Shown here: positions 28,353 to 32,087 of the stretch, one piece after another
How the letters are laid out: each line of letters starts with the position of its first letter
Numbering within the stretch: position 1 is the first letter of the stretch
From: Patescibacteria group bacterium
Lineage (GTDB): Bacteria; Patescibacteriota; Patescibacteriia; UM-FILTER-42-10
Assembly (NCBI GenBank): GCA_018825385.1
Contig: JAHJEX010000002.1
Span: 1 to 32,087 of the forward strand
Direction: 5' to 3'
Length of the DNA stretch: 32,087 nucleotides
Notes under the pieces: generated by a model
The model's database searches: none
The model's input: only the letters and a program-made list of their open reading frames with translations
Told to the model about the DNA's origin: nothing
Translations under genes and position numbers: made by a program

Positions 28353-29636
28353 ATGCCAAAATATTACACCCTTGCTTTAGGGTGTCAAATGAATAAACTG
28401 GATGCAGAAAAGCTAGATGCGCTTTTGCAGGAAATGGGGTTTGAGCCGACTCACAAAGAAAATGAGGCTGATTTGATAAACGTTTTTGCCTGCTCAGTAA
28501 GACAGTCTGCGATTAATAGGATTGATGGAAGACTAAAAAAATGGAATAAAATTAGAAAACAAAGACCCCTGACTACTGTTCTTACCGGCTGCGTATTGCC
28601 AAAAGATAAAAAAGAACTCGGGAAGCAATTTGATATCTTACTTGATGCACATCAAATGCATACCCTTCCAAAGTTATTGAAAAAAAGAATACAAGATATT
28701 GAAGACATATTCCCTGAAAGTGACTATTTCAAGCTTCCAACAAAGCATAAATCTCCTTTTCAGGCATTTGTTACTATCCAGGAAGGTTGTAACAAATTTT
28801 GCCGTTATTGCGCAGTCCCCTACACCAGAGGCAGAGAAATTTCCAGACCTGCCAGTCAGATTGTAGAAGAGGTTAAGGATTTAGTAAAAAAAGGCTACAA
28901 AGAAATAACTCTCCTTGGTCAAACAGTAAATTCATACCAGAACCCGGAAAAAGGAAACATTAGGACATTTGCTGATCTAATAAACACTTTGGCAAAAATT
29001 GATGGAAATTTTTGGATTCGTTTTATTTCTCCTTACCCAACTGATTTTTCAGATGAGCTGATAGATGTTATAGCAACTGAGAAAAAAATATGTCCGCATT
29101 TACATATACCTGTTCAGGCCGGCAGTGATGACATGTTAAAGAAAATGCTAAGAAAATACACAAGAGAAGAATATTTAGATTTGATAAGGAAAATTCGAAA
29201 GCAATTACCAAATGTATCGATAACAACTGACATAATTGTCGGGTTCTGTGATGAAACTGAAGAGAATTTCAAGGATACGCTTGATCTATACGAAAAAGTT
29301 AAATTTGATATGACATATACTGCACAATATTCAAAAAGACCGGGAACACAAGCAACAAAACTTTTCAATGACAATATTCCACAATCGGAGAAAAAAAGAC
29401 GTGAAGTAGAATTAAATGATCTTGTAAATAAGTACTCGCTAGTAAACAACAGAAAGATGCTTAACAAGACAGTTACAGTTTTAGTCGAAAATACTAAGAA
29501 AGAATCACTATTTGGTAAGACTGACACAAACAAGCAAATTCTTGTTAAGGGAGGATCAAAAGATTTAATAGGAAGCTTTGTTTCTGTAAAAGTTACTAAA
29601 GCACTGCCATGGAGCCTCGAAGGAACATTGAAATAA
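28353..29636 (+). CDS. miaB: tRNA-2-methylthio-N6-dimethylallyladenosine synthase MiaB
   Basis: Radical SAM methylthiotransferase that adds the 2-methylthio group to i6A37 in tRNAs reading UNN codons. 427 aa. The N-terminal UPF0004 domain carries the auxiliary cluster cysteines in LALGCQMNKLDAEKLDALL (C11), NVFACSVRQ and LTGCVLP. The radical SAM cluster motif is GCNKFCRYCAVPYTRGRE. A C-terminal TRAM domain (about 365-427, KTVTVLVENTKKESLFGKT) binds RNA. It acts after MiaA, whose gene is about 1.2 kb downstream; the two are now separated by a foreign membrane gene and a GIY-YIG cassette. It starts 24 bases after thrS and may share its transcript. Confidence 0.96.
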   Translation: MPKYYTLALGCQMNKLDAEKLDALLQEMGFEPTHKENEADLINVFACSVRQSAINRIDGRLKKWNKIRKQRPLTTVLTGCVLPKDKKELGKQFDILLDAHQMHTLPKLLKKRIQDIEDIFPESDYFKLPTKHKSPFQAFVTIQEGCNKFCRYCAVPYTRGREISRPASQIVEEVKDLVKKGYKEITLLGQTVNSYQNPEKGNIRTFADLINTLAKIDGNFWIRFISPYPTDFSDELIDVIATEKKICPHLHIPVQAGSDDMLKKMLRKYTREEYLDLIRKIRKQLPNVSITTDIIVGFCDETEENFKDTLDLYEKVKFDMTYTAQYSKRPGTQATKLFNDNIPQSEKKRREVELNDLVNKYSLVNNRKMLNKTVTVLVENTKKESLFGKTDTNKQILVKGGSKDLIGSFVSVKVTKALPWSLEGTLK

Positions 29637-29657
29637 ATGTTTAAACTGCGCTCGGCT

Positions 29658-29681
29658 GATATGAAAAGAAATTTTCATATC
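29658..29681. repeat. 10-bp hairpin after miaB
   Basis: GATATGAAAA (29658-29667), loop GAAA, TTTTCATATC (29672-29681). No T-tract follows, so it is a weak terminator at best; it may stabilise the miaB mRNA end. Confidence 0.6.
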
Positions 29682-29700
29682 ACTCCTCGCTTGTTAAAAT

Positions 29701-29736
29701 AAAAAAACGCCCGTCACCTAGAAGGGAAAAGCGTTT
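29701..29736 (-). terminator. Intrinsic terminator of the 169-aa membrane gene
   Basis: On the minus strand AAACGC (29731-29736) pairs with GCGTTT (29705-29710) over a long loop and is followed by Ts. The stem overlaps the stop codon. Confidence 0.65.
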
Positions 29737-30244
29737 ACTGCAGGGCAACGAAGACCCTATAGACAATTAAGGCAATGATGAAAGAACGGAGTACGCTGGC
29801 GGCATACACGATAGTGAATCCCCTACGTAGTTTGAGAATCCGGGCTGCAGCAATTGGTGCTACGAACAGGAATGGAACCGGAATAGCAGTAGCGATGAAG
29901 ATCGCCATCTGAGGATACCCGTCATTCACAAGCCGATCAATCCTACGCGCACGCGCCTGCTCTATTGCCGACCATTGCCGCAGGCACCATTGTTCGAAAC
30001 GTGTTTTTTCCTTTCTGTACCCGTTCAAGGATATCGCGTCTCTGATCAGATCAGCTATGTGGTGACCGATGAACTTTGCGTAGTCCGGAAAGTAAAAAAG
30101 CAGAGCGATGCCAATACTGGAACCACAAAGCAAGATGAAGTATCCTTTCCAGAATCCGTATCCGGCAACGTAGAGCGCAATTGCAGTCGTCTGTTCTTGC
30201 CAAATAGCAGACCAAATGAAAAACAGTTCGTCCATCATGTTCAC
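29735..30244 (-). CDS. Small multi-pass membrane protein, unknown, probably foreign
   Basis: 169 aa. No firm family. Hydrophobic helices lie at about 20-55 (GYGFWKGYFILLCGSSIGIALLF in part) and in the C-terminal half (MAIFIATAIPVPFLFVAPIAAARIL, IVYAASVLRSFIIALIVY). Between them lies an amphipathic basic stretch with EKTRFEQWCLRQWSAIEQARARRIDR. The shape recalls small DedA/VTT-type proteins but diagnostic residues are not clear. Start: GTG at 30244 is 4 bases after GGGAGG; the ATG two codons on is the alternative. The gene is richer in G+C than miaB and miaA, lies against their direction, and has its own strong promoter and terminator. All this suggests transfer as a unit. Confidence 0.65.
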   Translation of the reverse strand: MNMMDELFFIWSAIWQEQTTAIALYVAGYGFWKGYFILLCGSSIGIALLFYFPDYAKFIGHHIADLIRDAISLNGYRKEKTRFEQWCLRQWSAIEQARARRIDRLVNDGYPQMAIFIATAIPVPFLFVAPIAAARILKLRRGFTIVYAASVLRSFIIALIVYRVFVALQ

Positions 30245-30293
30245 ATGACCTCCCTGTCTGGACGTTGAATTAAAGAGCGATTCGAAGTTTAAT

Positions 30294-30322
30294 AATATAT
30301 CATTAATTCTATCTTAAGTCAA
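30294..30322 (-). promoter_or_regulatory. Promoter of the 169-aa membrane gene
   Basis: On the minus strand: TTGACT (30317-30322), a 17-base spacer, TATATT (30294-30299). Confidence 0.8.
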
Positions 30323-30335
30323 TACAAAAACAGGC

Positions 30336-30375
30336 AACCATTACGAACTCCACTTAAGTGGAGTGAAGTAATCCC
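30336..30375 (+). repeat. ATTGC-family hairpin repeat, copy A
   Basis: AACCATTACGA, inner perfect palindrome ACTCCACTTAAGTGGAGT (30347-30364), GAAGTAATCCC. Outer arms ATTAC (30340-30344) and GTAAT (30368-30372) pair. It lies 22 bases before the GIY-YIG start. Confidence 0.8.
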
Positions 30376-30397
30376 ATTGCACTAAGCAAAGTTTTCT

Positions 30398-30694
30398 ATG
30401 AGAGATACACACCACTATACATACATTATGACTAATATTAGGCATACTGTTCTATATACCGGTATGACTAGCAATTTAGTAAAACGAATAGAAAGTCACA
30501 AAGAAAAAGTAATAGAGAAATCATTCACCGCTAGATATAATCTAAATAAGCTAGTATACTTTGAGCAATGTTCTACAAGACAACAAGCATTAGAAAGAGA
30601 AAAACAAATAAAGGCAGGATCAAGGAAAAAGAAAGAATCACTCATTAATAAAATGAATCCGGAATGGGAGGATTTAAGCGGATTATTATTCTAA
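30398..30694 (+). CDS. Single-domain GIY-YIG nuclease
   Basis: 98 aa, essentially only the catalytic domain. The GIY strand is YTYIMTN (8-14) and the YIG strand is LYTGMTSNL (19-27). The catalytic Arg is in LVKRIESHK (R30) with the following His34. The metal-binding Glu is probably within KLVYFEQCSTRQQALEREKQIK, and a basic C-terminal helix KAGSRKKKESLI follows. This is the UPF0213/YhbQ-like size class, known as structure- or site-specific nucleases, some of them mobile. No DNA-binding domain is fused. The gene fills the space between inverted hairpin repeats A (30336-30375) and B (30710-30751) and lies next to a duplicated miaA fragment, so a role in moving this cassette is plausible but unproven. 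Confidence 0.88.
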   Translation: MRDTHHYTYIMTNIRHTVLYTGMTSNLVKRIESHKEKVIEKSFTARYNLNKLVYFEQCSTRQQALEREKQIKAGSRKKKESLINKMNPEWEDLSGLLF

Positions 30695-30709
30695 AAATAT
30701 TTCTATAGT

Positions 30710-30751
30710 AACGAGATTGCCACGTCCCGCTTTGCGGGACTCGCAATGGTT
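30710..30751 (-). repeat. ATTGC-family hairpin repeat, copy B (inverted)
   Basis: Read on the minus strand: AACCATTGCGAG, inner hairpin GTCCCGC/GCGGGAC (30724-30740), GGCAATCTCGTT. Opposite orientation to copies A and C; it lies 15 bases after the GIY-YIG stop. Confidence 0.85.
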
Positions 30752-30760
30752 TAGATAAAA

Positions 30761-30811
30761 ATACAGAAATTAATTGTAATTTTAGGTCCAACCGCTGCCG
30801 GTAAAACCAGT
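30761..30811 (+). pseudogene. Duplicated 5' fragment of miaA
   Basis: 51 bases matching the first 51 bases of miaA (30873-30923) at 45 positions. The start codon is ATA instead of ATG. Translated, it reads IQKLIVILGPTAAGKTS against MQKIVVILGPTAAGKTS in the real gene, so the P-loop is kept. The remaining differences are synonymous (CAA/CAG, ACT/ACC, AGC/AGT) or conservative (Ile/Leu, Val/Ile). It ends exactly at repeat copy C. Confidence 0.85.
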
Positions 30812-30860
30812 AACCATTGCGAGGAATCCTGCTTAGGCAGGATGACGAAGCAATCCCGTT
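30812..30860 (+). repeat. ATTGC-family hairpin repeat, copy C, in the miaA leader
   Basis: AACCATTGCGAG, inner hairpin ATCCTGC/GCAGGAT (30825-30842), GAAGCAATCCCGTT. Same orientation as copy A. It ends 12 bases before the miaA start codon, so it forms the 5' leader of miaA. Confidence 0.85.
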
Positions 30861-30872
30861 CAAAATAATTAT

Positions 30873-31748
30873 ATGCAAAAAATAGTTGTAATTTTAGGTC
30901 CAACTGCTGCCGGTAAAACCAGCATGTCCTTAACATTGGCTAAAAAGTTTAATGGCTATATTATCTCTGCTGATTCTAGGCAGATATATAGAGGTATGGA
31001 TATTGGGACTGATAAGTTAACAAGGAATAAATGGCAAGGAATAAAGCATAGAATGATTGACATTGTTAACCCTGATGATGATTATAGTTTAGCCCAATAT
31101 CAAAAAACTGTATTTGCCATTATTAACGACCAAAAGAAGTTACTCCCATTTTTAGTTGGTGGAACCGGCCTCTACATTCAGTCAATAGTTGATAATTTAG
31201 ATATTCCTAAAGGAGGACCTGATAAAGTTCTGAGAAAAGAACTTAATGAGAAAACAGTGCAAGAGCTTTTCAGAATGCTTATTAAGATTGATCCAAAAAC
31301 GGCACAAGTGATTGATGAGAACAACAAAAGAAGGCTAATCAGAGCAATTGAAGTGTGCAAAACATCTGGATTCAAATATTCGGATCGGACAAAAAAGAAT
31401 AAGCCGGTTGTAAATGCATTACAAATTGGTGTAAAAATATCACGTGAAGAAATGTATAAAAAAATAAATAAGCGGGTTGATGAAATGATGGAAGAGGGTT
31501 TACTTGATGAAGCTAAAAAACTTGGTGAGAAATATGATTGGGATATTCCTTCAATGTCTGCAATCGGATATAAACAATTAGGACTATATTTCAAAAAAGA
31601 ACTTTCCCTTGATGAAGCTGTGGAATTAATTAAAAATGATTCTAGGCATTACGCTAAAAGGCAAATGACCTGGTTTAAGCGCGATAGCAGAATTAATTGG
31701 GTTAGCTCTGCTAATGAAGCTGAAAAGCTGATTGAAAGATTTTTGTAA
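30873..31748 (+). CDS. miaA: tRNA dimethylallyltransferase MiaA
   Basis: Transfers a dimethylallyl group to A37 of tRNAs reading codons that start with U, the step before MiaB. 291 aa, normal length. P-loop GPTAAGKTS (9-17), ISADSRQIYRGMDIGTDK (dimethylallyl diphosphate and tRNA contacts), VGGTGLYIQSIVD, NNKRRLIRAIEV, and the C-terminal DSRHYAKRQMTWFKRD are all present. The gene is intact, but its upstream region has been replaced or rearranged by repeat copy C and a second copy of its first 17 codons. No clear Shine-Dalgarno is visible before the ATG, and I cannot identify its promoter. Confidence 0.96.
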   Translation: MQKIVVILGPTAAGKTSMSLTLAKKFNGYIISADSRQIYRGMDIGTDKLTRNKWQGIKHRMIDIVNPDDDYSLAQYQKTVFAIINDQKKLLPFLVGGTGLYIQSIVDNLDIPKGGPDKVLRKELNEKTVQELFRMLIKIDPKTAQVIDENNKRRLIRAIEVCKTSGFKYSDRTKKNKPVVNALQIGVKISREEMYKKINKRVDEMMEEGLLDEAKKLGEKYDWDIPSMSAIGYKQLGLYFKKELSLDEAVELIKNDSRHYAKRQMTWFKRDSRINWVSSANEAEKLIERFL

Positions 31749-32087
31749 TTAGATTTTGAAAAGATTAAAGAGAACAGAAATCAAAACAATAGGTCCATGC
31801 TCGGTTATAGAGTCCGTCCTCAGTTTGTTTCAGATATTCCTGTATATTTGCTAGTATTAGGAGGGTAAAGTATACTAATCTCATCTGAAGTTCGCATAAT
31901 ATGCAAATTTTGGCAATATCAATGCAATTACTTCGGATAGAAACGAGTTGTGCGGAAATCGCTTCGCTCGTCCGCACAATGTGCTGCGCCTACCGCCGCT
32001 GTTGTCCTCGTCGCTCCGCGACATCGCACAACAGCGCCTATGCTCAATGTCGGTCTGACGACTCCGTCGCCATCCCACCACCGCGCA
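31749..32087. other. 339-base non-coding end with serial G+C-rich hairpins
   Basis: No convincing gene. The first half is A+T-rich. From about 31944 the composition turns G+C-rich and folds repeatedly: TTGTGCGGA/TCCGCACAA (31948-31956, 31971-31979); CGCTGTTGT/ACAACAGCG (31997-32005, 32028-32036) enclosing GTCGC/GCGAC (32010-32022); and GACG/CGTC near 32058-32069. It runs off the window end. It could be a structured RNA or a block of hairpin repeats. Confidence 0.6.
31848..31876 (+). promoter_or_regulatory. Candidate promoter facing the terminal hairpin region
   Basis: TTGCTA (31848-31853), a 17-base spacer, TATACT (31871-31876). It points toward the structured stretch at 31944 onward. Tentative. 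Confidence 0.4.

Follow-up and report, generated by a model that had tools for sequence, protein, structure and literature searches.

A duplicated miaA start beside a GIY-YIG nuclease gene in a patescibacterium as a possible scar of a mobile palindromic insert

In the window analysed here, a stretch of 32,087 nt that represents one contig of the 1.27-Mb draft genome of a patescibacterium (CPR), a broken copy of the 5' end of miaA lies upstream of the intact miaA gene, with a palindrome at the break. We see an even chance that this fragment is a miaA start that was split by a mobile palindromic insert and regenerated in complete form downstream, and that it represents one case of a class-wide pattern.

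Self-splicing introns, or integrases that rebuild the 3' end, are the usual invaders of essential genes and above all of tRNA genes. The pattern described below points to a third way, in which the gene is split, a hairpin is left and a complete gene start is kept after the insert.

Results

Gene neighbourhood of miaA

The relatives of the window miaA among named records are mostly Patescibacteria, and in several relatives (L011, L012, L014) miaA directly follows miaB. The nearest relative with a miaA gene, G002, belongs to the same family (69% protein identity) and also carries a VTT-like gene upstream of miaA (locus L008). Since neither a nuclease gene nor palindromes lie between these two genes in G002, its arrangement probably shows the empty state of the site. 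In G001, another genome of the same family (96% complete), a match to miaA was not found. A nuclease of the same subtype as that of the window resides between miaB and miaA in a genome of a different family (L171, G007:C2, about 1520-1804); no duplicated start is present there, and this gene boundary was apparently invaded independently. The own genome was read only in stretches around matches. At the end of the contig, a GC-rich, repeat-like tail (31940-32087 of the window) stands out from AT-rich surroundings.

Table 1. Features around the duplicated miaA start (positions within the window)
Feature	Position	Strand	Description
miaB-type radical-SAM methylthiotransferase gene	28353-29636	+	Pfam PF04055, PF00919, PF01938
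ORF with weak VTT-domain similarity	29735-30244	-	PF09335 6.5e-5, under cut-off
Possible remainder of a still earlier miaA start	30321-30330	+	AATACAAAAA; just left of palindrome A
Palindrome A	30331-30375	+	CAGGCAACCATTACGA...GAAGTAATCCC; left of the nuclease gene; read from the sequence
Standalone GIY-YIG nuclease	30398-30694	+	98 aa; subtype with NPxWxDL tail; PF01541 7.1e-16
Palindrome B	30710-30752	-	Inverted relative to A and C; pattern match 30715-30749
Broken copy of the miaA 5' end	30761-30811	+	Codons 1-17, ATG changed to ATA; 45/51 to 30873-30923
Palindrome C	30808-30860	+	Opens with the conserved bases CAGTAACC, which share CAG with the end of the miaA homology
miaA, intact	30873-31748	+	Complete second 5' end; TIGR00174 1.1e-86, PF01715 1e-76

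Two copies of the miaA start

The two copies form a direct repeat (30761-30810 and 30873-30922) of 50 nt with 90% identity and a spacing of 112, and inclusion of base 51 gives 45 identical positions out of 51. A second miaA start had already been noted in a sequence-only reading of the window, and the match withstands comparison with chance: the second-best match to the miaA start within the 32-kb window reaches 27/51, and the best matches in Markov-shuffled windows had a mean of 27.7 and a maximum of 31/50. The similarity begins at the start codon, with 3/12 identical positions immediately upstream of both start codons, and the duplicate extends up to the first bases of palindrome C. A complete working gene end hence adjoins a broken native end, a feature of fungal mORF-type elements. 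The nuclease ORF is located upstream of both copies, i.e. outside rather than between them. The two-start arrangement of miaA occurs in one genome only, as the 109 other miaA loci yielded no second miaA start; a duplicated start without nuclease in many relatives, which the sequence-only reading had named as evidence against itself, was accordingly not seen. A third copy, the stub left of palindrome A, is suggestive at most and was not accepted, as its agreement with the fragment start (9/10) is not significant (shuffle P 0.17 to 0.37).

Besides the lost start (ATA in the fragment, ATG in miaA), the copies differ by three synonymous changes (CAG/CAA, ACC/ACT and AGT/AGC, fragment first), the T of the last being part of the adjoining palindrome, and by the exchanges TTA/ATA (L/I) and ATT/GTT (I/V). 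The five non-start differences are thus indeed all synonymous or conservative, as the sequence-only reading had stated, but as evidence of selection they are weak. Its further proposal, that the cassette arrived at miaA from a related genome with the fragment as co-converted foreign flank, we consider unlikely. If all five had arisen in the fragment by random mutation, so benign a set would have P = 0.026. However, when polarised by eye against G002, which is not a close relative, two differences (plus the lost ATG) fall on the branch of the fragment and two on that of miaA itself, so that both copies carry derived changes and the benign pattern is no longer significant (P = 0.24). A point in favour of a foreign flank is the amino acid pair at codons 4-5, which in the fragment is LI, the commonest pair among the other miaA genes (36/93), whereas the working copy has IV (7/93). 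Since LI is so common, the pair weakly suggests that the fragment was once a working miaA start; it is silent on any donor. The comparison with related miaA genes that the sequence-only reading had suggested places the fragment closest to the miaA of its own genome (45/51), and G002, at about 36/47, is a distant reference. Co-conversion in its ordinary form exchanges the flanking sequence, which alone would not result in two copies; an insertion within the gene, followed by regeneration of its 5' end, is the better fit.

We regard it as very improbable that the arrangement is an artefact of assembly or binning. The assembly is a draft of 90 contigs with 4.6% contamination, and the duplicate lies 1.2 kb from a contig end, but the copies differ at six positions, the arrangement is an ordered one and similar arrangements are present in many other genomes.

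Palindromes and the window nuclease

Palindromes A, B and C are members of one family, of which the genome contains about ten exact copies. The GIY-YIG gene is flanked by A and B, the fragment lies between B and C, and C stands between the two copies of the miaA start. Pairing between the arms of B and those of C encloses the fragment (fold z-score -7.3). No flanking duplication was detected at the other examined palindromes of the family in this genome (best score 23 versus 75 at miaA), and for this reason the palindrome family was rejected as a general maker of duplications.

The GIY-YIG catalytic domain of the window ORF scores over the Pfam cut-off, and the nearest relative of the nuclease in the tree is L177 of G002. 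Relatives that share the NPxWxDL tail (L336-L365) adjoin palindromes of the ATTGCGAG/GAAGCAATC type at about ten times the background, with 4.19 half-motifs of the window palindrome family per kb for this subtype compared to 0.43, and these nucleases may mobilise the palindrome family. A partnership of the nucleases with CGTC-REPs is not claimed, given that a strict scan returned only weak enrichment (0.47 versus 0.12 per kb). RAYT proteins were likewise rejected as mobilisers, since the palindrome motif is near none of the five stronger of six Y1_Tnp matches in the genome. As regards group I intron RNA structure, an Rfam search gave no match of any kind in 29600-32087, and 20 nuclease or palindrome loci of the own genome returned only tRNAs and one L10 leader but no intron.

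Split tRNA genes beside GIY-YIG nucleases

Our survey comprised 153 nuclease loci from the own genome and its class, with 158 standalone GIY-YIG ORFs. In the own genome, 17 GIY-YIG matches were detected; several directly precede a tRNA gene and have a broken piece of this tRNA at their other flank. Across the survey, 55 of the 158 ORFs have a tRNA gene at most 400 bp downstream on the same strand, compared to a single one on the opposite strand, and a partial copy of the same tRNA is present upstream of the ORF in 34 of 54 testable cases. The score of at least 28 used here is a lenient cut, a null from mismatched pairs having its 95% and 99% levels at 29 and 38; about half of the cases lie well above it, with identities such as 35/35, 36/36 and 37/37. 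Of the 20 remnants in which the tRNA start is preserved, 11 break off at positions 33-39 in the anticodon loop and five at positions 15-24 in the D loop. The inserts mostly begin with a hairpin at the break, and most of these duplicates start within three bases of the tRNA start. Outside the class, a small sample from the phylum gave 7 of 29 with a tRNA gene directly downstream. The subtype of the window nuclease is never found beside tRNA genes (0/17, compared to 51/131), and the tRNA cases therefore belong to other subtypes.

Individual loci with a GIY-YIG gene directly 5' of an intact tRNA gene and broken 5' pieces upstream are L045, L044, L047 and L053 in the own genome and L069, L190, L258, L301, L265 and L299 in relatives; their breaks lie in tRNA loops, and hairpins open the inserts. 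At L071 and L265 the nuclease ORF extends with its last codons into the 5' part of the intact tRNA gene, similar to the segB/tRNA-Tyr microhomology reported for phage T6.

Split protein genes in relatives

In G002, the glycyl-tRNA synthetase gene glyS (L068) consists of a remnant (MIEREENNLMEKIVSLAKRRGF), a GIY-YIG ORF between 19-bp inverted repeats and a recoded start (MLQQNLMEKIVSLSKRRGF). As in the tRNA cases, and other than at miaA, the endonuclease ORF resides between the two copies. The glyS gene of G001 carries a short insert without nuclease gene at nearly the same site, and this nuclease-free split comes nearest to the situation at miaA. In both genomes the working copy has SLSK, in place of the SLCK or SLAK of most other genomes. 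Compared with the outgroups G012 and G008, the G002 remnant shows 5-6 differences and the working copy 10-12, so that the remnant is the closer of the two, in agreement with a native end beside a replacement of the fungal mORF type. The two glyS copies differ in the manner of functional copies.

In G028 (L229), two GIY-YIG ORFs are found in consecutive prepilin-like genes, the first with inverted repeats around it and similar gene starts on both sides. This resembles the other splits, but natural paralogues may be involved.

Duplicated 5' ends of target genes beside GIY-YIG genes hence recur (34/54 tRNA cases; glyS of G002 and G001), and in this respect the link to a nuclease drawn in the sequence-only reading stands, while co-conversion as the route is unlikely.

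It could also be imagined that a break or a replication slip copied about 50 bases of the own miaA, that the palindromes were inserted later and that the outer copy decayed. Such a local duplication would agree with the own miaA being the closest match to the fragment. The genome does contain broken tRNA copies in tandem, each together with its own upstream flank (tRNA-Gln at L044 and tRNA-Ser at L053), and SegB of phage T6, also a GIY-YIG enzyme, drives tandem amplification at tRNA genes (PMC13096335). However, one would not expect a duplication at random to run exactly from the start codon to the palindrome, and the divergence of the two glyS copies is larger than a simple duplication would suggest. 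We therefore hold local duplication to be possible but rather doubtful.

Discussion

According to the explanation we prefer, the fragment would be the earlier 5' end of miaA, which received a mobile hairpin element, palindrome C, behind codon 16. The full 5' end that lies directly downstream of the element and runs from the start codon onwards would be a replacement; as it is joined to the rest of miaA, the gene remains intact, and the former start would decay upstream of it. If palindrome C entered the gene and a complete 5' end followed it, the exact ends of the duplicate would be explained. The miaA locus would be one case of a pattern observed across the class, in which GIY-YIG cassettes with or without a nuclease gene split tRNA loops, glyS, probably a prepilin gene and miaA, the break being marked by a hairpin and the insert being followed by a complete gene start. 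The miaA fragment is probably a nuclease-free member of this split-gene pattern.

The duplication with its exact ends, the palindrome at the break, the intact miaA and the wider pattern are all observed; several steps of this explanation go further. A nuclease of the window family may have cut the miaA start, the insertion and the replacement of the start may have been one event, and the replacement start may have come with the element and not by local copying. With the nuclease gene positioned outside the two miaA copies, a direct role of this gene in the duplication is something that we only infer. This position speaks against the explanation, as do the lack of duplications at the other examined palindromes of the family, the absence of the window subtype from the neighbourhood of tRNA genes and the occurrence of the miaA arrangement in a single genome.

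The dozens of tRNA scars in relatives suggest a selfish DNA that splits essential genes and leaves a complete working copy. One could propose, tentatively and with somewhat less confidence than for the split of miaA, that mobile GIY-YIG cassettes of Patescibacteria enter tRNA loops or conserved gene starts with a hairpin and a recoded 5' end, and that the miaA fragment is a scar left by a member that lacks the nuclease gene and was mobilised in trans. Since such cassettes would bring a replacement 5' end, they could parasitise essential genes without killing them. If true, this would account for the many standalone GIY-YIG genes and the broken tRNA pieces retained in the tiny genomes of Patescibacteria, and the pattern gives a concrete test of the role of these common, uncharacterised nucleases.

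Comparison with known systems

A literature search, mostly outside subscription journals, retrieved no description of GIY-YIG cassettes that split tRNA genes or gene starts in Patescibacteria, but related features are known from several systems. Like REP and REPIN sequences (PMC3116915, PMC3733652), the window palindromes are short and often arranged as inverted pairs, B and C being such a pair around the fragment, and the core of palindrome C has the CGTC plus stem form of a REP. Unlike the known GTAG REPs, whose partners are RAYT transposases, the window palindrome family adjoins GIY-YIG genes.

SegB is a free-standing GIY-YIG homing endonuclease of T-even phages that makes breaks at tRNA genes and causes tandem amplification (PMC13096335). 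The location of a free-standing GIY-YIG gene beside tRNA genes is shared with the loci described here; the phage enzyme, however, amplifies whole units, with neither split tRNAs with hairpins nor a link to miaA.

Within the same phylum, rRNA genes of CPR bacteria contain insertions, mostly at the top or base of stem-loops, some of which encode GIY-YIG proteins and match no intron (PMC11270868). These resemble our cases as GIY-YIG-encoding inserts in structured RNA genes, whereas here tRNA and protein genes are affected; a regenerated 5' copy is not mentioned in the parts of that report considered here.

A likeness in overall design is to fungal mitochondria, in which mobile endonuclease ORFs carry replacement gene ends (Allomyces atp6; Glomus atp6, atp9, cox2 and nad3), in that case C-termini, and the native ends persist as remnants with synonymous divergence (PMC3630166). 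In both systems an endonuclease element splits a conserved gene, a complete substitute end is kept and the native remnant stays. The fungal mORFs, however, concern the 3' ends of mitochondrial protein genes, whereas in Patescibacteria it is the 5' ends, mainly of tRNA genes, that are replaced, with hairpins at the break and, in the case of miaA, without an endonuclease gene between the copies.
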